A DNA stretch of 32,938 nucleotides from the IMG/VR virus record IMGVR_UViG_3300009093_000094, positions 1-32,938 of that record. One strand, written 5' to 3'. This document shows positions 2,873 to 31,739 of the stretch, one piece after another. This DNA comes from a virus. The position numbers and the translations under genes are program-made. The notes under the pieces were generated by a model that was not told the DNA's origin, did not search any database, and worked only from the letters and a program-made list of their open reading frames with translations. Positions within the stretch are counted from its first letter, which is position 1; every line of letters starts with the position of its first letter.

Positions 2873-3394
2873 TTAAAGGGCGTAGTTGTCGCTTGCTGGC
2901 TGCTTGGCTTCCGGCGAGCCGCCCTGTGCATACTGCTGGGCACGAGCGGCGGCGCGCGCTGCGCCCGTCAATGAGAATCGAGCGACCTTGAACTCGCCAG
3001 AAGCCATCGGGAACGCGAATCCTATCACGCCGCCCACGGACATGGCGTCGGCTACGGCCCCCTCAATGGGCAGCGAGTAAATGAGCAAATCTCCCACTTT
3101 CTCGCATTCCAGCACAACTGCAAATGCCGATGCGGGTGCGTTCACCAATGCAGGATATTTTGATCCAACGTCGCATTTGATGCTCGGATTGAAGAACCCT
3201 GAGCAACCGTCCTTGTAGCATATGGAGCCGAACGTCGCGCCAGCACTATTTGACACAGCGGCGATCGCAAAGCCCTGAGACGGGAATGTAATCCGCCAGT
3301 CTCCTAGATGCTCCTCCGGCGGAGGGGTAACTGGCACAACGTCGATAACGGGCGGTTTAGGAGCCGCCGCCATCAAAAGAATCGCAGCAATCAC
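2873..3394 (-). CDS. Predicted exported protein downstream of repressor (173 aa)
   Basis: Begins at GTG 3394-3392 with AGGGGG six bases before it, 21 bases after the repressor stop, so both genes are probably one transcript. A short hydrophobic N-terminus (AAILLMAAA) followed by a proline-rich linker looks like a signal peptide. Four cysteines (in ICYKDGC, IKC and VLEC) could form two disulfides in the periplasm. The order of GDWRITF near the start, the cysteines, a LPIEGAV segment and a final FKVARFSLTG faintly recalls the invasion-associated IalB fold, but that is a guess. Transcribed with the repressor, it would be made in the lysogen, which points to lysogenic conversion or superinfection exclusion. 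Confidence 0.65.
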   Translation of the reverse strand: MIAAILLMAAAPKPPVIDVVPVTPPPEEHLGDWRITFPSQGFAIAAVSNSAGATFGSICYKDGCSGFFNPSIKCDVGSKYPALVNAPASAFAVVLECEKVGDLLIYSLPIEGAVADAMSVGGVIGFAFPMASGEFKVARFSLTGAARAAARAQQYAQGGSPEAKQPASDNYAL

Positions 3395-3415
3395 ACAAGC
3401 CCCCTGTTTGGTAGT

Positions 3416-3730
3416 TCAGCCGTTAGTGCCGTCGCCCTCGTTGGTGAACGTCTCCAAAACCTGAAGCGCCTGCTTGCGGCGGCGCTCGGGTATGTGGTCC
3501 CACACGAAGGAAACCTTATCGTCGTCCGGATCGCCAAACATGAGGTGGCGCAGCGAAACGCCCAAGGCGCGGGCGATAGCCTCCAGGTTCTCGACCGTGA
3601 TGCTCTTGGTCTGGCGGGTCATGAACTTGTGCAGCATCGAGTCCGATAGCCCGGCTGCAAGTGACACGCTCCGGTAGGTAGCGCCCTCCTTCGCGTCGAT
3701 AACCCGTTGAATTCTGGCCCGCAAATCCAT
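3416..3730 (-). CDS. XRE-family phage repressor, short form (104 aa)
   Basis: A helix-turn-helix occupies about residues 19-42 (YRSVSLAAGLSDSMLHKFMT), followed by VENLEAIARALGVSLRHLM, the typical XRE/Cro-CI arrangement. The protein stops at 104 aa and lacks an S24 self-cleavage domain, so RecA-triggered autocleavage is not expected and induction must occur otherwise. The start at ATG 3730 is chosen because the longer frame (to 3817) would run through the operators. There is no Shine-Dalgarno, and a CACAAT -10-like hexamer ends six bases before the ATG, suggesting a leaderless message. Divergent from the Cro-like gene, it is the CI-equivalent by position. Confidence 0.8.
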   Translation of the reverse strand: MDLRARIQRVIDAKEGATYRSVSLAAGLSDSMLHKFMTRQTKSITVENLEAIARALGVSLRHLMFGDPDDDKVSFVWDHIPERRRKQALQVLETFTNEGDGTNG

Positions 3731-3736
3731 TGCAGG

Positions 3737-3742
3737 ATTGTG
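3737..3742 (-). promoter_or_regulatory. Repressor promoter (PRM-like) -10 element
   Basis: CACAAT on the minus strand sits six bases before the repressor ATG, placing the start site at or next to the ATG. The expected -35 region (CGCCGC-like) is poor, as in activator-dependent PRM promoters. The operator site 3746-3757 lies in its spacer. Confidence 0.35.
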
Positions 3743-3745
3743 CCA

Positions 3746-3804
3746 GTAGAACCCTACGTGCGGCGAGTGTAGAATACTCCTTGACGCCGTACGTAGTTTT
3801 CTAC
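3746..3804. promoter_or_regulatory. Right operator region with three operator-like sites
   Basis: Three sites share the GTAG-N4-CTAC plan: 3746-3757 (GTAGAACCCTAC, perfect arms), 3769-3780 (GTAGAATACTCC, imperfect) and 3793-3804 (GTAGTTTTCTAC, perfect arms). Centre-to-centre spacing is 23 and 24 bases, close to the lambda OR3-OR2-OR1 spacing. The outer sites lie inside the spacers of the two divergent promoters. The regulator is inferred to be the adjacent XRE repressor and the Cro-like protein. Confidence 0.7.
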
Positions 3805-3809
3805 ACAGT
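3781..3809 (+). promoter_or_regulatory. Rightward early promoter (PR-like)
   Basis: TTGACG (3781-3786), a 17-base spacer and CACAGT (3804-3809). The -35 equals that of the leftward promoter; the -10 is weak. The predicted start falls at about 3816, which is the first base of the Cro-like gene, so the transcript appears leaderless. An operator fills the spacer. Confidence 0.55.
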
Positions 3810-3815
3810 GGGCGC

Positions 3816-4025
3816 ATGACGGAAACTCAGCAGCTCATCGCGCGCATCAAGGCGCTGGCGGAAAAGCAGGGTCTCGCGCCTTCAACGGTCGGGGCCAAGG
3901 TTCTCGGCGGTGGCGCAGTTCTGGCGGCTCTGGAAAGCGGAAAGACCATCACACTCGCAAAGTATGAGCGGGCAAAGGCGGCGCTGGCCGAGATGGAGCG
4001 CGCCGAACCCACCAAGGCCGCCTGA
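3816..4025 (+). CDS. Cro-like small regulator (69 aa)
   Basis: First gene of the rightward early operon, divergent from the repressor. The product is a short basic-acidic helical protein: MTETQQLIARIKALAEKQGL, then a helix-turn-helix-like APSTVGAKVLGGGAVLAALE, then a GKTITLAKYERAKAAL segment recalling small phage DNA-binding proteins. No Shine-Dalgarno precedes the ATG; the promoter geometry suggests a leaderless mRNA. By position and size it is the Cro equivalent. The helix-turn-helix assignment is by eye and moderate. Confidence 0.7.
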   Translation: MTETQQLIARIKALAEKQGLAPSTVGAKVLGGGAVLAALESGKTITLAKYERAKAALAEMERAEPTKAA

Positions 4026-4066
4026 CTAATGGCGGGGGGACTCACCACACCTGAAAGGAGCGCACC

Positions 4067-4261
4067 ATGCGCAATGATCCCGAACGCGAACTCGCGCTCG
4101 AATGCCTTCGGCTGGCCGTTGGCCACGTCGCACCTTTCAGCGGCGATGCCATACCGGTCGCTGCTGAGTATTTCGCTTTCGTCACCGGGACCGACACGGA
4201 CGACGCCAAAGCCAAGCTTGAGGCCGTCCGTAAGGCGGTCAGTTCGGCGCCAGGGTCTTGA
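4067..4261 (+). CDS. Small hypothetical protein (64 aa)
   Basis: Preceded by a strong AAAGGAG about eight bases before ATG 4067. The protein starts MRNDPERELALECLRLAVGH and contains an AEYFAFVTGTDTDDAKAKLEAVRKAV helix-rich C-terminal half. No motif recognised. It follows the Cro-like gene in the rightward early operon, and its 3' end overlaps the end of an opposing small gene by 23 bases. Confidence 0.65.
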   Translation: MRNDPERELALECLRLAVGHVAPFSGDAIPVAAEYFAFVTGTDTDDAKAKLEAVRKAVSSAPGS

Positions 4262-4409
4262 ACTCCCCCGTTCCGTAAACGGCGCGACGGCACTTGGTGA
4301 AGAACCGCAACTGGTCATCAACGCTATCGGTGACCTTGCGCATATCAAGCCACAACTTGAATGCGACCTCTTCGGGGATCGTGGCGCCAGTTTTGTACGT
4401 GTCGGCCAT
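4239..4409 (-). CDS. Opposing small hypothetical protein in early operon (56 aa)
   Basis: On the minus strand ATG 4409-4407 has GCAGGAGAA a few bases before it, a strong ribosome-binding site. The frame encodes MADTYKTGATIPEEVAFKLW, then LDMRKVTDSVDDQLRFFTK, ending EFKTLAPN: well-mixed, globular-looking composition unlike a shadow frame. A TTGACT lies upstream at 4467-4462 as a possible -35, with only a poor -10. It is the single leftward gene inside the rightward early operon, converging on the preceding gene. Function unknown. Confidence 0.6.
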   Translation of the reverse strand: MADTYKTGATIPEEVAFKLWLDMRKVTDSVDDQLRFFTKCRRAVYGTGEFKTLAPN

Positions 4410-4511
4410 TCAATTTCTCCTGCTGGATTCGACAACCGCAGGATGACCGCCGGGGCGGTGGAGTCAATCCGCCGCCCCCAAGGCACCACACTACACTGAC
4501 AGGGGGCCGAC

Positions 4512-4658
4512 TTGGACGGGGGCACGTACGACATCGTTGACGACCCGCACGACGGGATCGGGCTGCTTCGCTTCATCGGCTGGACGGTGCTGATCGCAGC
4601 TTTCGAGGCGTGGCGCGACCTGTTCTGGAAGCTCTCGCGCGGAGGGATGGGGAAGTGA
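4512..4658 (+). CDS. Small membrane-associated hypothetical protein (48 aa, TTG start)
   Basis: TTG 4512 is five bases after AGGGGG. The peptide begins MDGGTYDIVDDPHDGIGLLR and has a hydrophobic segment of about 12 residues (FIGWTVLIAAFE), too short for a confident membrane span but able to form an amphipathic anchor. It ends in a basic tail (LSRGGMGK). Its stop overlaps a GTG start of the next frame. No ATG start is available, which lowers confidence. Confidence 0.5.
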   Translation: MDGGTYDIVDDPHDGIGLLRFIGWTVLIAAFEAWRDLFWKLSRGGMGK

Positions 4659-4819
4659 ACCCGATCCTGCGCACGGCCTTCCGCGCCCACCTTCGCCACG
4701 ACTTCACCGGCAGGGCGTTTCGCACCCCCGCCAACGACTACCCCGCAACGGGCAAGGGGCCGGATCGGCTTGCCTCCGCCGCGTCCGGCCCCGCTGTTTC
4801 TCGCTCCTTTCACGGATAA
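4655..4819 (+). CDS. Small hypothetical protein (54 aa, GTG start)
   Basis: The frame opens at GTG 4655 in a GTGA overlap with the preceding stop, with a G-rich GATGGGGA just before it. The product starts MNPILRTAFRAHLRHDF and continues with basic and proline/glycine-rich sequence, ending SRSFHG. No motif is visible. Coupling supports it; low-complexity composition argues for caution. Confidence 0.45.
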   Translation: MNPILRTAFRAHLRHDFTGRAFRTPANDYPATGKGPDRLASAASGPAVSRSFHG

Positions 4820-4823
4820 GACA

Positions 4824-5165
4824 ATGCACGGTAACGCGCCGAATGTATTCGCCTTTTTGGCTGCCCCGAGCCGGGATGCATCCCTTTTCGCGGTGGCGAA
4901 GGTGGTTCTCGCTGTCCGGGGGCTTGGGCTGACCTACAAGGAAATTGCCAAGGCAATCGACGTGTCGCCCGACACCATCGAAGGCGCGGCGGCTGAAAAG
5001 AGCCTGCTGTCTTTCGATGCCGTGGCCCGGCTTTGCTACCTGTTCCCCGGTGAGGCGGCTCCGCTGTTCGACCTGATGCGGCCGACGCGCGAACAGCCCA
5101 CCACGGCAGAGCGCATCGAGCGGATCGAGCGCGAACTTTCAGCAATCCGAAAGGAAGCGGAATGA
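4824..5165 (+). CDS. Helix-turn-helix early protein (113 aa)
   Basis: Residues about 29-50 form a convincing helix-turn-helix (LGLTYKEIAKAIDVSPDTIE), followed by LSFDAVARLCYLFPG, a stretch common in phage and prophage regulators. The C-terminus is a charged helix (TAERIERIERELSAIRKEAE) that could mediate oligomerisation. ATG 4824 is preferred to an in-frame upstream start at 4770 that would overlap the previous gene. The place between Cro-like and replication genes is where lambda carries cII, so a role in the lysogeny decision is possible but not shown. Confidence 0.7.
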   Translation: MHGNAPNVFAFLAAPSRDASLFAVAKVVLAVRGLGLTYKEIAKAIDVSPDTIEGAAAEKSLLSFDAVARLCYLFPGEAAPLFDLMRPTREQPTTAERIERIERELSAIRKEAE

Positions 5166-11027: not shown

Positions 11028-12964
11028 AGGGAACTGACAGCCGCGACGTTTCCGCGCTGGTCCGGCTGTTCGAGGAGGCGGAAAACGCCACTGCCGACGC
11101 CCGCCGCAAGGCGGAACGTGACCGCGATTATTACGACGGCAAGCAGTGGACCGATGACGAGGTGGCTGCGCTCGACAAGCGCAAGCAGCCGGTTGTCACC
11201 TACAACCGAATCCAGCGCAAGGTGGACTTCCTCTCCGGGCTTGAGCGCCAGCAACGCAAAGACCCGAAGGCCTTCCCGCGCACCCCGAAGGACCAGGACG
11301 CGGCTAACGCGGCCACCGACGCCATCCGTTATGTCTGCGACGCCGAAGAATGGGACGAGGTGCGGTCGGCGGCATGGGATAACATGCTGATCGAAGGCAC
11401 GGGGGCAATTCTGGTTGGGGTCAAGCAGGGCAAGCAGGGTTATGACCCAAGCCTGACGCATATTCCGTGGGATCGCTTCTTTGCCGATCCTGCCAGTGTT
11501 CGCCCGGATTGGTCCGACGCCCGGTATATGGGCGTGGTGACATGGTACGACGCCGACGTGGCCGAGGAAAAGGGTTGGCCGACCGATGTAGTCGAGGCAA
11601 CCATTTCGCGTGATGGCTCGGAAGACACCTATGGCGACAAGCCGCGCGATAATTGGGCTGATTACACCCGCCGCCGGTTCCGGGCGATCGAGATTTATCA
11701 CCGCAAGCGCGGCAAGTGGATGCGCTGCGTATTCACCCGCGGCGGCTATCTGGAACCCGAAGCCCCGTCGCCCTATCTGGACGAGGACGGCGCGCCGGAG
11801 AACCCTATCAAGGCGGCAAGCCTCTACATCGACCGGGTGAACGACCGCGCCGGGCTGGTGCGGGTGATGATCTCGCCGCAGGACATGGTGAACAAGGCGC
11901 ATTCGAAGGCAATGCACCTCACCAACATGCGGCAGGTGCGGGTTTCGCCGGTAGCCTCGCAGGAGCCTGACAAGATCAGGCGCGAACTGGCCAAGCCGGA
12001 TGGCGTGGTGGTGGGAGAGAAGGACGACTTCGAAATCCTTCACACCAACGACATGGCGGCTGCACAATTCAATCTGTTGCAATTGTCCATGAACGAGATC
12101 GACCTGCTCGGGGCCAATGCCGCCCTGCAGGGCAAGAACGAGAACGACATGAGTGGCCGCGCGATCATGGCCCAGCAGAACGGCGGCATGGTCGAGGTGG
12201 CCCGTGCGTTCGACCGGCTGCGCTCGATGTCGATCGAGGTCTATCGGGCTATCTGGAACCGCGTCCGGCAGGTGTGGTCGGATGAGCGGTGGATCAGGGT
12301 AACCGACAGTCCGCGTGATTTGCGGTTTGTCGGGCTTAACGAGCGGGTGACGGTGCGGCAGATCGCCGAGGAGGTGGCGCAAGGCGACCCGCAGGGTATC
12401 CAGAGTGCAACCAAGCTCGTTGGCCCACAACTGATGCAAGCCTACATGGCAGGCGACCAGCAGGCGCAGGTGGTCCTTGGCCAGTTCGTCCAGCAATACG
12501 GCGACCAGGTGGCCGAGACTCGCAACGCGGTTAATGAGCTGGATGTGGATATCGTCCTCGATGAGGGCATGGATACCCCCACGGTTCAGGCTGAGCAATT
12601 CGATACGCTTGCCAAGATGCTGCCGAGCCTGTTCCCCCAAGGCGCCCCCCCAGCGGCGATCAAGATGCTGATTGAAGCCTCGGCGCTGCGCGACAAGGAC
12701 CAGTTGGCCAAGATCATGGACGAGGCCAACGCGCCGAACCCGATGGCCGAACAGCAGCAGCAATTGCAGATGGCCGCGGCCGAGGCTGAGGTCGAGAAGA
12801 CCAAGAGTGAGACGGCCAAGAATATCGCGCAGGCGCAGAACGCAGGTGGGCAACCAACCGACCCTGCCGAGCATATGCTGCGCGCCGCCGAGATCGAGAC
12901 GGACCAGTTCAACGCGGTGACAGACCGCATGCAGGCGATGCAGCCGGAGCGCGCATCCACCTGA
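11012..12964 (+). CDS. Portal protein, P22 type (650 aa)
   Basis: Size and order of features match P22-like portal proteins. The N-terminal helical start (ARRKAERDRDYYDGKQWTDDE, VVTYNRIQRKVDFLSGL) is the typical entry to the family, followed by IPWDRFFADPASV, then MHLTNMRQVRV and FDRLRSMSIEVYRAIWNRVRQVW. The C-terminal 100 residues are Gln/Glu-rich and helical (MAEQQQQLQMAAAEAEVEK), the barrel or coiled extension region. It forms the dodecameric DNA-entry vertex. It overlaps large terminase by 16 bases; GGAAGG lies six bases before the ATG. Confidence 0.9.
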   Translation: MEDGVKGTDSRDVSALVRLFEEAENATADARRKAERDRDYYDGKQWTDDEVAALDKRKQPVVTYNRIQRKVDFLSGLERQQRKDPKAFPRTPKDQDAANAATDAIRYVCDAEEWDEVRSAAWDNMLIEGTGAILVGVKQGKQGYDPSLTHIPWDRFFADPASVRPDWSDARYMGVVTWYDADVAEEKGWPTDVVEATISRDGSEDTYGDKPRDNWADYTRRRFRAIEIYHRKRGKWMRCVFTRGGYLEPEAPSPYLDEDGAPENPIKAASLYIDRVNDRAGLVRVMISPQDMVNKAHSKAMHLTNMRQVRVSPVASQEPDKIRRELAKPDGVVVGEKDDFEILHTNDMAAAQFNLLQLSMNEIDLLGANAALQGKNENDMSGRAIMAQQNGGMVEVARAFDRLRSMSIEVYRAIWNRVRQVWSDERWIRVTDSPRDLRFVGLNERVTVRQIAEEVAQGDPQGIQSATKLVGPQLMQAYMAGDQQAQVVLGQFVQQYGDQVAETRNAVNELDVDIVLDEGMDTPTVQAEQFDTLAKMLPSLFPQGAPPAAIKMLIEASALRDKDQLAKIMDEANAPNPMAEQQQQLQMAAAEAEVEKTKSETAKNIAQAQNAGGQPTDPAEHMLRAAEIETDQFNAVTDRMQAMQPERAST

Positions 12965-20515: not shown

Positions 20516-21135
20516 GCCTGCCCAAGCTCCAGCGCACGGTTCCGATTACCGGCGCGGACGGCAAGCCGACTGTCCCGTTCCATATCTGGTTCAACAAGGC
20601 AATCGACAGCATCGAAGCTGCCCTGACGCAGCTCACCGATCAGGTGGCAGCGATTCAGGCAGCGCAGGACGCGGCGGACGCGGCGAATACCGCTGCTGCG
20701 GCGGCCGATGCGGCTGCGACAACCGCGACAACGGCGGCGGCGGCGGCGCAGACCACGGCGGATACCATCGTCAACGACCAGGCGCTGATCCTGTCGTGGG
20801 TCAGCGGCATGATTATGACCGGGCACGACGCCGGAGCCGACGCCTCGATCTCGATCAGCGCCCACACCCGGTATTACGGGGACGGGACCAGCGCATCGGT
20901 CAATTCCGGCAGCTTCACCGGCAAGGCATATTCGACCACGTACTACATCTATTACGACGATTCCGGGCGGACCGGCGGCGCGGTTACCTACCAGATCAGC
21001 ACCAACTCGAACGATGCCGTTCAGGGCGGGATCAGGCATTTCGTGGGGGTTGTAACGACCCCTGCGGCAGCGGCAGCGGATACCTCCGGGGTAGGCCCCT
21101 ACCCTCCGGGCATCGGTGACGTGGTGTATTTCTGA
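20509..21135 (+). CDS. Tail protein with alanine-rich coiled coil (208 aa)
   Basis: A short N-terminal domain (MVSLPKLQRTVPITGADGKP, VPFHIWFNKAIDSIEAA) is followed by an Ala/Thr-rich helical stretch (about residues 45-90, AAIQAAQDAADAANTAAAA) typical of trimeric phage fibre stalks. The C-terminal half is a beta domain (SAHTRYYGDGTSASVNSG, YYIYYDDSGRTGG). Probably a tail needle or fibre component. It overlaps the gp10-like gene and ends in a TGATG with the next gene. Confidence 0.65.
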   Translation: MVSLPKLQRTVPITGADGKPTVPFHIWFNKAIDSIEAALTQLTDQVAAIQAAQDAADAANTAAAAADAAATTATTAAAAAQTTADTIVNDQALILSWVSGMIMTGHDAGADASISISAHTRYYGDGTSASVNSGSFTGKAYSTTYYIYYDDSGRTGGAVTYQISTNSNDAVQGGIRHFVGVVTTPAAAAADTSGVGPYPPGIGDVVYF

Positions 21136-22187
21136 TGCGGTTCATCGTTCTGGGCCTGCCCCGCTCCCGCACGGCATGGCTGGCCCGGTTTCTGACCTAC
21201 GGCCACCATATCTGCGGCCACGAGGAACTGCGCCACATGCGCAGTCTGGACGACGTGAAAGCGTGGATCTCACAGCCCATGACCGGATCGGCGGAAACGG
21301 CTGCGGCCCCGTGGTGGCGGACGTTGCTCCGGTTGGCCCCTGAGGTGCGGGTGGTCGTGGTGCGGCGGCCGGTTGACGAGGTGGTGGAAAGCCTCGCGGC
21401 CTTTGGATTCGACCGCCCGGTTATCCGACCGGCGATGGAGCGGCTTGACGCGAAGTTGGATCAGATCGCCAAGCGCGTGCCCTGCCTAGAAGTGGCCTTT
21501 GACGACCTGAACGAGGAAGCCACCTGCAAGGCGGTGTTCGAGCATTGCCTGCCCTACCCGTTCGACAAGGCCCACTGGCAACGCCTCGCGGGTGAGAACG
21601 TGCAATGCGATATGGTGGCGCTGGTCCGTTATGCCACGGCGTTCCGCCCGGCGATGGAGAAACTGGCAGCGCAAGCCCGCCACGCCGAACTGCGCGAGCT
21701 GATGGCCAAAAAGCCGGTCGAGCCGGATGGAATTACCTTTCAGGTAGAAGATTGCGCGACGTGGAAGCGCGACGGACGTAGGCTGTTCGAGGAACATTGC
21801 TTCACGGTGGGCGAAGATCCCCGCGAATGGGAGCGCAAGAACTGGCCGCTGTTCGAGGTGATTGAAAGCGTGGGCATGATGCAGATCACCACCGCCCGTA
21901 GCAACGGCCGGATGTTCGGCTACCTGATGACGCTGGTTTCACCCTCGCTGGTGAGCGAGGGGCGGACAGTCGCCGCGCACTCAACGTTTTACGCTGACCC
22001 GACCTTCCCCGGCCTTGGAATGAAACTGCAACGCGAAGCGCTCGCCCGGCTGAAAGAGCAGGGTGTGGACGAAGTGGTGTGGGAAGCCGGGAAGCGGGGC
22101 GACGGGCCACGCCTCGGCACGATGTATCGCCGCCTTGGCGCACAGGAACACGGGCAGACGTATCGCCTTGAACTGACGGAGCATTAG
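21135..22187 (+). CDS. Sulfotransferase-like plus GNAT acetyltransferase fusion (350 aa)
   Basis: The N-terminal half opens MRFIVLGLPRSRTAWLARFL, a 5'-PSB loop of PAPS-dependent sulfotransferases (GLPRSRTAW, residues 7-15), and carries a 3'-phosphate-type motif RRPVDEVVESL (77-87). The C-terminal half (about 195-350) reads as a GNAT fold, with SEGRTVAAHSTFYADPTFPG, then GLGMKLQREALARLKEQG (294-310), a motif-A-like acetyl-CoA site, and MYRRLGAQ (330-337). It sits between tail and ejection protein genes with a TGATG overlap, so it is expressed with virion genes. Possible roles are modification of virion proteins or host surface glycans. Domain calls come from motifs. Confidence 0.75.
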   Translation: MRFIVLGLPRSRTAWLARFLTYGHHICGHEELRHMRSLDDVKAWISQPMTGSAETAAAPWWRTLLRLAPEVRVVVVRRPVDEVVESLAAFGFDRPVIRPAMERLDAKLDQIAKRVPCLEVAFDDLNEEATCKAVFEHCLPYPFDKAHWQRLAGENVQCDMVALVRYATAFRPAMEKLAAQARHAELRELMAKKPVEPDGITFQVEDCATWKRDGRRLFEEHCFTVGEDPREWERKNWPLFEVIESVGMMQITTARSNGRMFGYLMTLVSPSLVSEGRTVAAHSTFYADPTFPGLGMKLQREALARLKEQGVDEVVWEAGKRGDGPRLGTMYRRLGAQEHGQTYRLELTEH

Positions 22188-22189
22188 AG

Positions 22190-23062
22190 ATGGGTCTAGC
22201 AGCAGCAGCAGTAGGCGCAGTCGGCGCGGTCGCTGGCGGATTGATTTCTGCCGGAGGCGCCAAGAGCGCGGCCAATGCCTCGGCGGCGGCCTCTGATCGT
22301 TCGTCTGCCGTTCAGCAGCAGATCTACGGGGAGAACAAGCAGACGCTTGCTCCCTATGTCCAGACCGGACTTCCGGCCACGCAGCAGATCAACGCCCTGC
22401 TCGGCCTTGCGCCCACCACGTCAACGACAGACTGGTCCGCCTACGCCAACGCGAACCCGGAGCTGATGGCGGCATTCAACGCGCAGCAGCAGAACCCCTA
22501 TTATGGTTATGGGGACGTTCTCAGCGGCATCTACGGCAAGTTCAACCTCCCGGGCAGCACGACGGGCGCGCAAGACCTCTCGACCTTCGCCCAGCAGTGG
22601 CACCAACAGCACGGCGGCGACCTCGGGGCCTATACGACCACGACCAATCCGCAGACCGCTGCCAATGCGGCGTTCGACATGTTCCGCAATTCGAGCGGCT
22701 ACGACTGGCGCTTGAAGCAGGGGATGAACGCGCTGAACTCCGGTTATGCCGGGGCGGGCACGATCAAGTCCGGCGCGGCGATGAAGGCGGCGGTTGACTA
22801 CGGACAGGGGCAGGCCAGCCAAGAGTTCGGCAACTACCTCAACTCGCTCGGCAACCAGCAAGGCGTCGGTTTGCAGGCGGCGGGAGCGCAGGCGAATGTC
22901 GGGGTTCAGGCAGCGAACAGCCTGGGCAATATTTACATGACGAACGGGGCCAATCAGGCGCAGGCGGCCATAGCGGGGGCTAATGCACTGGGCGGAGGGT
23001 TGGCAGGCGCAGCCAATGCGCTTGGCGGCATCCTGGCACCTAAATACAAGCTGGGGGTATGA
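22190..23062 (+). CDS. DNA ejection protein, P22 gp7-like (290 aa)
   Basis: The N-terminus is a Gly/Ala-rich amphipathic or membrane-inserting segment (MGLAAAAVGAVGAVAGGLIS), followed by the QTLAPYVQTGLPATQQINALLGL stretch common in phage ejection or DNA-transfer proteins. The C-terminal region repeats Gln/Ala/Gly helices (QASQEFGNYLNSLGNQQGVG, ANQAQAAIAGANALGG). Such proteins are packed in the virion and form a channel across the envelope during infection. It is the first of three ejection-type genes. Confidence 0.75.
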   Translation: MGLAAAAVGAVGAVAGGLISAGGAKSAANASAAASDRSSAVQQQIYGENKQTLAPYVQTGLPATQQINALLGLAPTTSTTDWSAYANANPELMAAFNAQQQNPYYGYGDVLSGIYGKFNLPGSTTGAQDLSTFAQQWHQQHGGDLGAYTTTTNPQTAANAAFDMFRNSSGYDWRLKQGMNALNSGYAGAGTIKSGAAMKAAVDYGQGQASQEFGNYLNSLGNQQGVGLQAAGAQANVGVQAANSLGNIYMTNGANQAQAAIAGANALGGGLAGAANALGGILAPKYKLGV

Positions 23063-23065
23063 TCC

Positions 23066-23833
23066 ATGGTTGGTGAAGTCGATTTCAGCCAGCTCCGCGT
23101 TCCCGACATCGGCGCGGCCTTCCAGCAGGGCTACCAGCAGAAGCGGAAGCAGAACGCCCTTGCTGCCTATGCGCAGAACCCGGACAACCCGCAGGCGCTC
23201 AATGCGCTGGCCGAGTTCAATCCGGAGTTCGTGGTACAGGCGAAGAAGCTGCAACTGCAAGAACAGCAGGCCAAGGCCAAGCAGGCGCAGGAAGCCAGCA
23301 TTGCCCATATCCAGCAGCTTGGGCGGCTGCTCAACCACGCCCGCGACGAGACGTCCTATCAGCAGGCCCGCGCCGCCGCCGCACAACTACCCGGCATGGA
23401 TATGTCGCAGATCCCCGCCAACTATGATCCTAACTGGGTAAACCAGCAGAAGCTGGTCCTTTCGGCCATCGAGAAGGACGGCGGGCAGGCCCTTTCGAAT
23501 TACGGCAAGATTGCCATGGATCGGGGTTTGCAGCCGGGCACGCCAGAGTTCGCGCAATTCGTGACGCAGGCGTGGGAGGCCGATCAGGTCAAGACCATCC
23601 CCTATACGCAGGGCGGCGGCGTGGCGGGCTACAACACCGCCACGGGCGCGGTGAATACCATCATTCAACCCAACCCCGGCGGCTATCAGACGGGTGCACC
23701 CGTTGGTGGCGGCTTCAAGGAAGGCCAGACCGCGACCAATCCGCAGACTGGCGAAAAGGTCCAGTTCCGGGGCGGCCAGTGGGTTCCGATGGGAGGCGGT
23801 AGCGGCAACGCTACCGGCGGCTTTCAACCATAA
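23066..23833 (+). CDS. Second ejection-type virion protein (255 aa)
   Basis: Residues 1-110 are helical with many Gln and Ala (GAAFQQGYQQKRKQNALAAY, EQQAKAKQAQEASIAHIQQL), as in P22 gp20-like proteins. The C-terminal third is Gly/Pro-rich (VNTIIQPNPGGYQTGAPVGG) with an FKEGQTATNPQTGEKVQFRG segment, a flexible linker that ends NATGGFQP at TAA 23831-23833. In the +1 frame an M15 peptidase domain continues at once. A UUU-C at 23822-23825 would allow a +1 shift joining them, so this protein may exist also as an extended form. Confidence 0.7.
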   Translation: MVGEVDFSQLRVPDIGAAFQQGYQQKRKQNALAAYAQNPDNPQALNALAEFNPEFVVQAKKLQLQEQQAKAKQAQEASIAHIQQLGRLLNHARDETSYQQARAAAAQLPGMDMSQIPANYDPNWVNQQKLVLSAIEKDGGQALSNYGKIAMDRGLQPGTPEFAQFVTQAWEADQVKTIPYTQGGGVAGYNTATGAVNTIIQPNPGGYQTGAPVGGGFKEGQTATNPQTGEKVQFRGGQWVPMGGGSGNATGGFQP

Positions 23834-23852
23834 CCTCGTCAACTTTCAGGGC

Positions 23853-24089
23853 ATGGGTGGGGAGCGGATCACCTCGACCTTCCGCACACCGTCCCACAAC
23901 GCAGCGGTTGGCGGTGTGTCCAACAGCTACCACACGCGGCGTGATGCAGCAGGCAACCCCATGGCGCGGGACAGCGTGCCGCCTCCGGGGATGAGCATGG
24001 GCGAATACGCCCGCAGGCTTCAGGCGCTCAATCCGCATCTGCAAGTGATTAACGAGGGCGATCACGTCCACATGGAACCGAAGGGCTAA
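23853..24089 (+). CDS. M15-like peptidase domain, virion-associated (78 aa; start uncertain)
   Basis: The sequence ITSTFRTPSHNAAVGGVSNSYH with downstream ARDSVPPPGMSMGEY and GDHVHMEP matches M15_3-type D-Ala-D-Ala/Glu-endopeptidases. Candidate zinc ligands are H27, an Asp at 31 or 40, and H73. ATG 23853 lacks a usable Shine-Dalgarno. The frame is open upstream through AFNHNLVNFQGMGG, directly beneath the end of the previous gene. It may thus be a separate protein, the product of +1 frameshifting, or the result of an indel that split one gene. Its likely role is local peptidoglycan cutting during DNA entry. Confidence 0.6.
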   Translation: MGGERITSTFRTPSHNAAVGGVSNSYHTRRDAAGNPMARDSVPPPGMSMGEYARRLQALNPHLQVINEGDHVHMEPKG

Positions 24090-24092
24090 CGA

Positions 24093-26729
24093 ATGTCGCA
24101 ACTCCCCCCCGGCTTTGTGCTTGATGGTCCCGCCCCGGCGTCTCCGAGCGGCCCGGTCTATGGCGCACCGCCCAAGCCCGACAAGCCCGATCAGCCCAAA
24201 ACCACCTATCGGACCATGACGCCTGACGAGGTGAAGGCCGCTGGCCTCAACCCGACCCATGGCTATCAGGTCAGCAGCGAAGGCAAGGTGGACGACCTCG
24301 GGGAAACCGTAGACACCAAAGCCGCGAAGGCTGAAGACAGCAAGGCGACCACAATTGGCGAATTCAAGCGCACGCTCGACGCCATCGACCAGGCTGCACT
24401 GTTGACCGCAGCGGACAATGGCTGGTGGGAAACCGGGAAGTCCGGCGCGTTCATCCGTTCCATGCCCAACGTGGTGCAGGCCGGGACCGACAGCAAGACG
24501 CTTGAGGGCTACCTCAACACGATCAACGCCAACACCGCGTTCAAGAAATTGCAGGAAATGCGGCAGAACAGCCCGACCGGCGGCGCGGTGGGCAACGTGT
24601 CGGACAGCGACATGAAGCTGTTGCAGTCCACGATCAGCAGCATCAACCCCGATCAGGACCAGGCGGCTTTCTTCCAGAACCTCGCCACGCAGAAGAAAGC
24701 CTATCTGGATACGCTGGCCAAGCTCGATCCCGCAGCGGCGCAGGAATACGCCAACAAGAAGGGCATCCGCTTCGGCGCGGACGGTATGCCGACGCTGGTT
24801 TCGGTCGATGGGCCGGACGACCGCAAGCCGCAAGACCCGTTCGGCGTCCTTGGTGGGCAGACGCCTCCCGATGGCGGCAATGGGGGTGGTCCTGGGGGCG
24901 GCGGCCTATCCCTTGGTCAGGTATGGGAGGGCATCAAGCAGGGCGCCGGAAGCATGGCGGCCGGTATTGGCGACATTGCCGGGATTGTCGGCAATCCGCT
25001 GAACGCCACGATCAATGCGGCAACCGGGAGCAACCTCTCTACCGACCTTGGCGGCTCCTTGCGGGATATGCTTGGCCTGCCGCAGAACACGACCGGAACC
25101 GACACGATAATCCGCACTGGCACTGGCGCGGCTGCGGGCAGTCTGGGAGCAAGGGCTGCTGCTACCGTTGCCAATCCGGGCGCGGTGCAGAACGCGCTCA
25201 CCATGTTTGGCCGCGCTCCTGTAGCCGACACCGTGGCTGGTGCAGGGTCTGGTGCCGGTGCCGATATTGCCCGGCGCAACGATCTCGGCCCGGTCGGCCA
25301 GGTGGGCGGCGCTGTTCTCGGCGGCATGGCCGGTTATGGGGCAGTCAATGCGCTCGCCCGGAACCCAGCAGGCGGGGCCAATGCACTTGCGGCAGCGGCA
25401 GACCGGCAGGGCGTAAACATGCTCCCTGCCGATGCTGGCGGCCCCGCTACGCGCATTGTTACCTCTGCCACCAAGGCATCCCCGATCTCCGCAGGGCCAG
25501 TGGTTAAATCCGCGCAGGCGGCAACGGGCGATCTGGCCAACGCGGCGGCCCGCACTGCCAAGGCGCAAGGCGGGCTGGTTGATTCGGAAGTCGCCGGAAC
25601 GAATATTCGCAACGCTGCGGAACGCTTCACCAAGCAGACCGCAGAGCGCGCCAACCGGATGTATGATCGCGCCTATCAAATGGCGGGAGACGCCCGGATA
25701 GTCCCCGCGCAGACCCTCGCGGCGATTGACGAACAACTTGTGCGCCTTTCGCAGAACCCTGCGGCCGATAACGGCACGGTCAAGCAGCTCATGGCGCTGC
25801 GGGAAAGCATCGCGAACGGGGTGTCCGTGCAGGGCCTGCGCGATGCCCGTTCAGCACTCTCGCAGGGTATCTACGACGGGAAGCTGCGCGGCGGCCAGGA
25901 ACAGGCCATGTTCAAGCAGATCCTCGGTAATGTCGCTGCGGACATTGAACAGGGCCTGCGGCAGTCCGGTAAAGCGGACGCTGCCAACGCCTTTGCGACG
26001 GCGGACAAGTTCTGGTCGGCGCGGGTAGAGCATATCGACAAGGTGCTTCAACCCATCCTCGGAAACGGCAAGAGCGGGGAAGAGGTGCTGCAGGCCGTGG
26101 AGAGCATGGCGCGAGGCAAAAGCGGGGGGAATGCCCGGCTGTCCCGCCTCCTGTCCAACATGACGCCGGAAGAAGCGGGAAACGTGCGTGCCGCGATCAT
26201 TGATCGGATCGGCAAGGCTGCGCCCGGTCAGCAATCGGCAGAAGGCAACGCCTTCTCCGCATCGACCTTCCTGACCAACTGGAACAAGATGACCCCGCAG
26301 GCCAAGGGATCGCTGTTCGGGGATCAAGCCACGCGCCGTAATCTGGACGACATTGCGCTGCTTTCTGAGCGCATGAAAGCAACGCAGGCGATGGCCAACC
26401 ACTCCAATACCGGGGCCGCTATGGCGGGCAACGTTGGCGCACAAGGCGCTTTGCTGGTGGCTCATCCGGTCGCAGCCATCCTCGGCGCCGGGGCGCAGTA
26501 TATTACTGGACGGCTGATGGCCTCGCCGGGATTTGCGCGCATCCTGCTTCGCACCTCCAAGATGCCGGATGCCCCTGCGGTGCGTTCACTCAAGGATCAG
26601 TTGACAGTTCTCGGCACTCGCGAGCCGCTGGTTCGTGCCGATGCGCAGGCGCTTCAGCAGTATCTCGCCACGGCGTTCGGCAAGTCACCAGTCGCCGCTG
26701 CCGCTAATGAGAAAACCGACCGTCGGTAA
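24093..26729 (+). CDS. Large ejection / internal virion protein (878 aa)
   Basis: Three base pairs after the peptidase stop. The N-terminus is Pro-rich (MSQLPPGFVLDGPAPASPSG). A helical region follows, then a Gly-rich linker (about residues 250-270) and a long Ala/Gly segment with potential membrane-inserting helices (GAAAGSLGARAAATV, GGAVLGGMAGYGAVNALA). The last 400 residues are helical (TNIRNAAERFTKQTAERANR, FATADKFWSARVEHIDKVLQ). Size and position match the biggest ejection protein of P22-like phages (gp16). It would be delivered into the cell with DNA. Confidence 0.75.
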   Translation: MSQLPPGFVLDGPAPASPSGPVYGAPPKPDKPDQPKTTYRTMTPDEVKAAGLNPTHGYQVSSEGKVDDLGETVDTKAAKAEDSKATTIGEFKRTLDAIDQAALLTAADNGWWETGKSGAFIRSMPNVVQAGTDSKTLEGYLNTINANTAFKKLQEMRQNSPTGGAVGNVSDSDMKLLQSTISSINPDQDQAAFFQNLATQKKAYLDTLAKLDPAAAQEYANKKGIRFGADGMPTLVSVDGPDDRKPQDPFGVLGGQTPPDGGNGGGPGGGGLSLGQVWEGIKQGAGSMAAGIGDIAGIVGNPLNATINAATGSNLSTDLGGSLRDMLGLPQNTTGTDTIIRTGTGAAAGSLGARAAATVANPGAVQNALTMFGRAPVADTVAGAGSGAGADIARRNDLGPVGQVGGAVLGGMAGYGAVNALARNPAGGANALAAAADRQGVNMLPADAGGPATRIVTSATKASPISAGPVVKSAQAATGDLANAAARTAKAQGGLVDSEVAGTNIRNAAERFTKQTAERANRMYDRAYQMAGDARIVPAQTLAAIDEQLVRLSQNPAADNGTVKQLMALRESIANGVSVQGLRDARSALSQGIYDGKLRGGQEQAMFKQILGNVAADIEQGLRQSGKADAANAFATADKFWSARVEHIDKVLQPILGNGKSGEEVLQAVESMARGKSGGNARLSRLLSNMTPEEAGNVRAAIIDRIGKAAPGQQSAEGNAFSASTFLTNWNKMTPQAKGSLFGDQATRRNLDDIALLSERMKATQAMANHSNTGAAMAGNVGAQGALLVAHPVAAILGAGAQYITGRLMASPGFARILLRTSKMPDAPAVRSLKDQLTVLGTREPLVRADAQALQQYLATAFGKSPVAAAANEKTDRR

Positions 26730-31616: not shown

Positions 31617-31708
31617 CGGGGTAGCTGAAGGCGGGTGGGATTTGAACCCACGGCGGCCCGAAGGCCACTCCCGTGCACAGGTGCCTTAAACCGCTCAGCC
31701 ACCGCACT
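31617..31708 (-). tRNA. Degenerate class II tRNA-like element
   Basis: On the minus strand the T-arm (GTGGG TTCAAAT CCCAC, about 31652-31636) and the D-arm (GCTGAGCGGTTTAAGGC) are tRNA-like. The long variable arm is GGCC TTCG GGCC. Around them AGTGCGG and CCGCCTT can form six of seven acceptor pairs. A tRNA-Ser/Leu style body is clear, but the anticodon arm (ACCTGTGCACGGGAG region) does not form a normal 5-bp stem or give a Ser or Leu anticodon, and no CCA is encoded. It is either a pseudo-tRNA, a heavily diverged phage tRNA or an att-derived remnant. The ends given are approximate. Confidence 0.5.
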
Positions 31709-31711
31709 CCA

Positions 31712-31739
31712 GCCCCCGCAGAATCGCACCTCAGGGGGC
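31712..31739. repeat. Inverted repeat upstream of the tRNA-like element
   Basis: GCCCCC (31712-31717) and GGGGGC (31734-31739) are perfect complements across 16 bases. No T-run follows in either direction, so it is not a standard terminator. It sits between the tRNA-like sequence and the end of the next minus-strand gene. Confidence 0.4.

Follow-up and report, generated by a model that had tools for sequence, protein, structure and literature searches.

Reading frames at the locus

We analyzed a 32,938-nucleotide (nt) stretch of viral DNA (IMG/VR record IMGVR_UViG_3300009093_000094, positions 1 to 32,938; hereafter the window) in which a gene for a P22-injectosome-like ejection protein is followed, in the +1 frame, by an M15-like peptidase domain, with a candidate RNA frameshift element near the 3′ end of the ejection gene. 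The ejection open reading frame (ORF) runs on the + strand, as do the element, the +1 extension and the two neighboring genes described below, from an ATG at 23066 to a TAA at 23831-23833, and its 0-frame product is 255 amino acids (aa) long. The ORF ends ...GGC TTT CAA CCA TAA, with the stop three codons after GGC_UUU_C. The slip site, UUU_C (23822-23825), reads UUU in the 0 frame and UUC in the +1 frame, and is followed by a 0-frame CAA. From 23820, the +1 frame reads A-F-N-H-N-L-V-N-F-Q-G-M... and stays open through to a TAA at 24087-24089. The resulting +1 extension (23823-24089) comprises the end of a linker and the M15-like domain, and a shift from UUU to UUC would give a predicted fusion of 340 aa (253 + 87).

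An earlier sequence-only reading had proposed that the ejection ORF ends at TAA 23833 and that an M15 domain continues in the +1 frame, and both the frames and a Pfam match confirm this. The domain matches Peptidase_M15_3 (PF08291) at 26.3 bits, against a gathering cut-off of 23.2, and its relatives reach 36.9. The presumed zinc ligands and catalytic residues, H...D...E-x-D-H-x-H, are invariant among 21 sequences; the assignment of individual ligands follows the family pattern. An AlphaFold 2 model of the domain has a predicted local distance difference test score of 91.5. Foldseek with this model returned no match at E <= 0.001, a profile search of the PDB with the domain returned no match, and tblastn against cultured phages found nothing. 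The putative M15 assignment is based on Pfam and the motif rather than on a fold match. In the +1 frame, pairwise nonsynonymous divergence (dN, 0.04-0.26) is far below synonymous divergence (dS, 0.5-3.0), indicating purifying selection, and differences at third codon positions are twice those at positions 1 and 2.

We found no convincing start for a separate peptidase gene. The GTG at 23694 listed as the start of the M15-frame ORF is a mechanical call within Arg-rich, non-conserved sequence. The sole M15-frame start codon within -60 to +45 nt of the slip site is an ATG at 23853, which is not conserved and lacks a properly spaced Shine-Dalgarno (SD) sequence, in agreement with the earlier statement that the only nearby ATG has no ribosome-binding site (RBS).

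Relatives and the upstream RNA element

Two IMG/VR scans using the M15 domain alone identified 28 distinct loci, the window included. In 21 of these, again including the window, the M15 domain lies +1 to the ejection ORF, and in all 21 the 0-frame TTT is followed by C, in line with the earlier proposal that tRNA-Phe slips from UUU to UUC at 23822-23825. The 0-frame stop in these +1 loci comes mostly 2-4 codons after the slip. The 0-frame ejection proteins of the relatives share 16-60% identity with the window protein, and their alignment contains only two invariant residues, one Gly in the linker and the Phe at the slip site. Four loci (L006, L011, L013 and L014) have the M15 domain in frame with the ejection ORF. 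The other three (L020:3986, L022:3986 and L025:3986) place it in the -1 frame relative to the ejection ORF, so that the same fusion would arise by a shift in the opposite direction. The site there is a canonical heptamer, C CCU UUC, followed by a strong 3′ stem-loop in L020 and in L022; the fold in L025 is weaker. Relatives therefore include both the same shift (20 further +1 loci) and the in-frame fusion (the four loci above and the cultured phage VSN-002), the two arrangements that the sequence-only reading had suggested looking for. In L013, a single ORF (3134-4945) contains the ejection protein, the M15 domain and an apparent next ejection protein, and the frameshift element is gone.

The in-frame fusions are what lends some plausibility to the idea that a recent indel or sequencing error broke a fusion gene in the window. 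Against this, the same +1 arrangement with TTT_C is shared by 21 distinct loci, drawn from many metagenomes, and a similar one exists in the cultured phage Pam1; the +1 domain is under selection; and a near-identical contig (IMGVR_UViG_3300005563_000143) has the same frames, with 1 difference in 4,323 bases. We give this explanation next to no credence, as an indel or assembly error is ruled out by the independent loci.

Only the M15-found loci provide an unbiased sample of the RNA element, because the DNA-pattern scans described below require it. This unbiased set comprises the 24 M15-found loci that carry the element, namely the 21 +1 loci and the in-frame loci L006, L011 and L014. In the window, an internal SD-like GGAGG (23792-23796) directly abuts an 8-bp hairpin, CGGTAGCG-GCAA-CGCTACCG (23797-23816; arms 23797-23804 and 23809-23816), whose GCAA loop is of the GNRA type, and a 5-nt spacer (23817-23821) separates the hairpin base from the slip codon. 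The 24 loci share one layout: GGAGG, a gap of 0-2 nt, a stem of 6-8 bp (in L016, 8 bp interrupted by a single bulge), 4-6 nt, and TTT. Loops are often GNRA or UNCG-type, and GGAGG lies 22-28 nt upstream of the slip site.

Both fold energy and covariation support the hairpin. The window segment from GGAGG to TTT folds at -15.3 kcal/mol, and none of 500 synonymous variants is equally stable; compared with the mean of synonymous linker recodings, all 24 loci fold more stably (z -1.2 to -4.1), many of them far beyond it. All seven of seven pairs form in 22 of 23 distinct spacers, compared with 0.9% of background 25-mers, and we counted 159 pairs versus a maximum of 110 among shuffles. Compensatory changes occur in the stems of all 24 loci: pairs switch among G-C, C-G, A-U, U-A and G-U with pairing maintained. 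One of our pair-type tables was read off each sequence's own fold, so that pairing there holds by construction; the covariation score comes from a fixed alignment and is 0.854, versus 0.393 for shuffled alignments, with 0 of 500 shuffles reaching it. No Rfam family matches the element. We detected no downstream structure at the +1 loci (mean z 0.05), and the canonical -1 arrangement, X_XXY_YYZ with a 3′ structure, is absent from the window and the +1 loci. Sequence comparison establishes that the domain is out of frame with the ejection ORF, that a slip motif and a covarying RNA element are present, and that the +1 domain is under selection.

This anatomy raises the question of whether the hydrolase is instead a separate gene, with GGAGG and the hairpin acting as a split RBS that starts translation at or near UUU/UUC, or with termination-reinitiation. 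The T4 gene 38 start is built alike, with a hairpin that shortens the gap between the SD sequence and the AUG from 22 nt to 5 nt (PMC3014915). In the loci examined, however, the codon at the split-SD distance is invariantly TTT/TTC and never ATG, GTG or TTG. The M15 frame has no conserved start codon, and in L010 and L049 it lacks any ATG, GTG or TTG within -60 to +45 nt of the slip, so the case in which relatives encode two separate proteins, each with a proper RBS, is not what we found. The 0-frame phase of the TTT is preserved in every +1 locus, and VSN-002, L013 and the reversed loci described below encode a covalent fusion. A separate gene is therefore very improbable. Of the three explanations that the sequence-only reading had left side by side, the comparative data single out programmed recoding, at the very site that this reading had named, while the split gene lacks a conserved start and the indel is contradicted by independent loci.

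Transcriptional slippage aided by a nascent RNA hairpin would also produce a fusion, and a Roseiflexus insertion sequence element that works this way likewise has a hairpin just upstream of its slip point (PMC5009743). Here, though, the run is three Ts (TTTC), far shorter than the Roseiflexus U5C4 site, and the three -1 relatives use the canonical ribosomal heptamer C CCU UUC; we regard transcriptional slippage as extremely unlikely.

A further alternative accepts the frameshift and assigns it to the hairpin and UUU_C only, with GGAGG incidental or serving some other role. In a 70S extract, an upstream hairpin alone gave ~60% of the SD-driven +1 activity (PMC6321510), and yeast ABP140 relies on a hairpin alone (PMC12661321). 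GGAGG is nevertheless invariant in 24 of 24 unbiased loci. It is encoded with GGA in all 23 loci that have GGA GGN codons, though in these genes only ~10% of Gly codons are GGA, and in L019 it is kept in a different codon phase (AAG GAG GTC). An incidental GGAGG therefore seems unlikely, though it keeps some weight.

Cassette variants, cultured phages and gene context

We scanned 2.9 million viral contigs in IMG/VR with DNA patterns describing only GGAGG, the stem and TTT[CT]. These scans returned 46 contigs, 13 of them already known from the M15 scans and a few others near-duplicates, and in all 46 the element sits within a 0 frame that is open upstream. Of these contigs, 41 have a 0-frame tail of 2-17 codons and a +1 frame that is open past the slip (in some, up to the end of the stored DNA); many loci read UUU_CGx at the slip. 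The +1 domains belong to families with no relation to one another: some are M15-like peptidases, others SLT transglycosylases (scoring up to 72 bits), and others an NNPGN-type domain with matches to phage endolysin and tail-injection-transglycosylase PHROGs. The cassette therefore appears to carry interchangeable wall hydrolases, and the swapping of domain families is itself evident from the comparison. A model limited to tetraloop members (R1) scores that group at 44-60 bits, and most pentaloop members score poorly. Two contigs with the element (L070, IMGVR_UViG_2596583600_000002, and L106, IMGVR_UViG_2931122664_000001) have IMG numbering that suggests isolate genomes.

The other 5 of the 46 contigs are reversed: the fusion is encoded in the 0 frame, and a stop follows within 1-4 codons in the +1 frame, as where TTT CTA G would be read as TTC TAG. 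The GGAGG-hairpin is kept in these loci (L011:3974, L014:3971, L061 on the - strand, L064:4096 and L080:534). The early +1 stops point to selection for two products, but are suggestive only, because some of the reversed loci are sisters. The -1 relatives, which have swapped to a heptamer, likewise suggest that selection acts on the presence of two products and not on the direction of the shift. The sequence-only reading had missed the upstream GGAGG-hairpin, the interchangeability of the hydrolases, and the relatives with a -1, in-frame or reversed layout.

Among cultured phages, Pseudanabaena phage Pam1 (ON014753.1) carries the element at 11173-11206 in its injectosome translocase gene, as GGAGGT CAGGCGG CTCCC CCGCCTG CTGGC TTT TCG. 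Its slip site is TTT followed by T, and its +1 frame encodes an M15-like domain. The annotated GenBank coding sequence Pam1_15 (L100:3791-3940, corresponding to ON014753.1 11366-11515) covers an internal fragment of this +1 domain, so the Pam1 hydrolase is misannotated. Pam1 surfaced only via its ejection protein; a blastn search of cultured phages with the 36-nt element yielded chance-level matches only. Sphingopyxis phage VSN-002 encodes a simple in-frame fusion, in which a remnant of the linker hairpin persists but GGAGG and TTT are absent. Pan3 has no M15 domain or element at the corresponding place, and in the regions matched in Burkholderia phage JC1 and Caulobacter phage S2B the annotation showed nothing comparable.

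The gene context supports an ejection role for the 255-aa window protein. The protein has no Pfam or PHROG match; remote matches link it to an annotated ejection protein or translocase of the injectosome in Pan3, and link its relative in L081 to that of Pam1. Its upstream neighbor (22190-23062) is a P22 gp7-like DNA ejection protein (phrog_598, 'DNA ejection', 1.4e-27). The 878-aa protein encoded downstream (24093-26729) matches an uncharacterized PHROG only, and by position, in a Pan3-like order, takes the place of the third ejection protein. Matches to phrog_637, phrog_578 and phrog_598 lie upstream of the window ejection gene, and the locus has the P22-like order of adaptor, head closure, needle, ejection genes and spike, with gene order as in Pan3. 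Within the needle/ejection block, the protein encoded at window positions 21135-22184 has PHROG matches that are hydrolase-like at the N terminus and acetyltransferase-like at the C terminus, and Pam1 likewise has an acetyltransferase at the matching place. Near the window end, ARAGORN predicts a tRNA-Leu(AAG)-like gene (31627-31719, - strand) that has a weak Rfam tRNA match.

Proposed mechanism and known systems

Together, these comparative data make it very probable that the locus uses programmed +1 ribosomal frameshifting, stimulated by an upstream SD sequence and hairpin, to place a hydrolase on a fraction of the ejection protein. We propose that as a ribosome leaves the ejection-gene linker, GGAGG and the adjoining hairpin re-form at the mRNA exit while UUU occupies the P site. 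The hairpin base, 4-6 nt upstream of the P-site UUU, would act by mRNA pulling or by an E-site clash, and GGAGG would pair with the 16S anti-SD, held at an SD-like distance by the intervening hairpin. Both contacts would bias peptidyl-tRNA-Phe to move forward from UUU onto UUC. Without a slip, the ribosome would stop 2-17 codons on (mostly 2-4) and release the plain ejection protein; with one, it would append a peptidoglycan hydrolase, which in the window is an M15 peptidase. Virions would thus hold mixed ejection proteins, a fraction of them bearing a wall-cutting enzyme for crossing the periplasm. In this scheme we infer slippage itself and its efficiency, the physical action of the hairpin and SD sequence, and the packaging of the fusion.

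Several points weigh against this mechanism. Huang et al. found that an upstream hairpin stimulated +1 frameshifting only without RF2, that is, with a stalled A site (PMC6321510), and the A-site codon after UUU here is an ordinary sense codon. The SD sequence of prfB lies 3 nt from its slip site (PMC12421855), compared with 22-28 nt here, so that the SD contribution hinges on the looped-out model. The hairpins of L007, L015, L017, L018 and L040 are not individually extreme, as 30-64 of 500 synonymous recodings are as stable.

We also consider it probable, with less assurance than for frameshifting itself, that the element represents a portable and previously undescribed podophage recoding cassette, with a split SD/hairpin behind the ribosome, a UUU_C +1 slip without an A-site stop, and interchangeable hydrolases on a fraction of an ejection protein, whose two products stay under selection in loci with a reversed default frame or with a -1 heptamer in place of the signal. 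Our literature search turned up no previous account of an ejection-gene frameshift; its coverage of subscription journals was limited, and an earlier description is possible. Frameshifting of this kind would explain where many podophages conceal a virion wall hydrolase, which is overlooked or cut short in gene calling (as in Pam1), and it points to selection for having plain and hydrolase-tipped ejection proteins together.

Parts of this design are known from other systems. T7 gp16 and K1E gp15-type ejection proteins also carry a peptidoglycan hydrolase, with domains that swap among phages, but there the hydrolase domain is in frame, and the review describing them does not mention frameshifting (PMC8954989). 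Listeria phage PSA cps/tsh (+1), T7 gene 10 and lambda G/GT resemble the cassette in adding a recoded C-terminal extension to a virion or assembly protein. They differ in being capsid, tail and chaperone genes with CCC-type +1 sites or -1 sites and no wall hydrolase cassette; of the CCC-type +1 sites in phage structural genes, one has a downstream pseudoknot and one precedes a stop codon. Shift direction can differ among relatives in such structural-gene frameshifts (PMC5009743). Influenza A PA-X shares a UUU_C slip into the +1 frame (UCC_UUU_CGU; PMC3498833), but is eukaryotic and has no comparable upstream SD-hairpin. In T4 genes 38 and 25, a split SD sequence lies 22-27 nt from the codon and is bridged by a hairpin (PMC3014915); that arrangement serves initiation at AUG, while here the codon is UUU in an elongating frame.

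Closer to the proposed mechanism, prfB, which encodes RF2, combines a +1 slip of the P-site tRNA with an internal SD sequence, and in some species uses a Phe slip codon (TTTTTGA; PMC12421855). It differs in its short SD spacing, in CUU_UGA with an A-site stop, in having no hairpin and in being autoregulatory, whereas sense codons follow UUU_C here. Designed upstream hairpins stimulate +1 frameshifting on 70S ribosomes in vitro (PMC6321510). In yeast ABP140, the base of the stem is 6 nt 5′ of the shift site, and inserting a single codon eliminates the effect (PMC12661321). ABP140 resembles the phage element in its natural, conserved hairpin ~6 nt upstream (4-6 nt in 24 of 24 loci here), in a P-site tRNA that can re-pair and in a stimulation explained by mRNA pulling, but it involves an 80S eukaryotic ribosome, CUU_AGG_C, no SD sequence and one gene family, whereas the cassette is common to many phages. 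A natural 5′ RNA structure as a +1 stimulator was reported, for ABP140, only in late 2025, and the element described here is apparently a natural bacterial-virus version. About fifty phages have it, combined with three or more unrelated enzymes, and its design appears to be new among programmed +1 frameshifts. Its natural variation in stem, loop, spacing, slip base and direction lends itself to direct tests of the mRNA-pulling and SD models.
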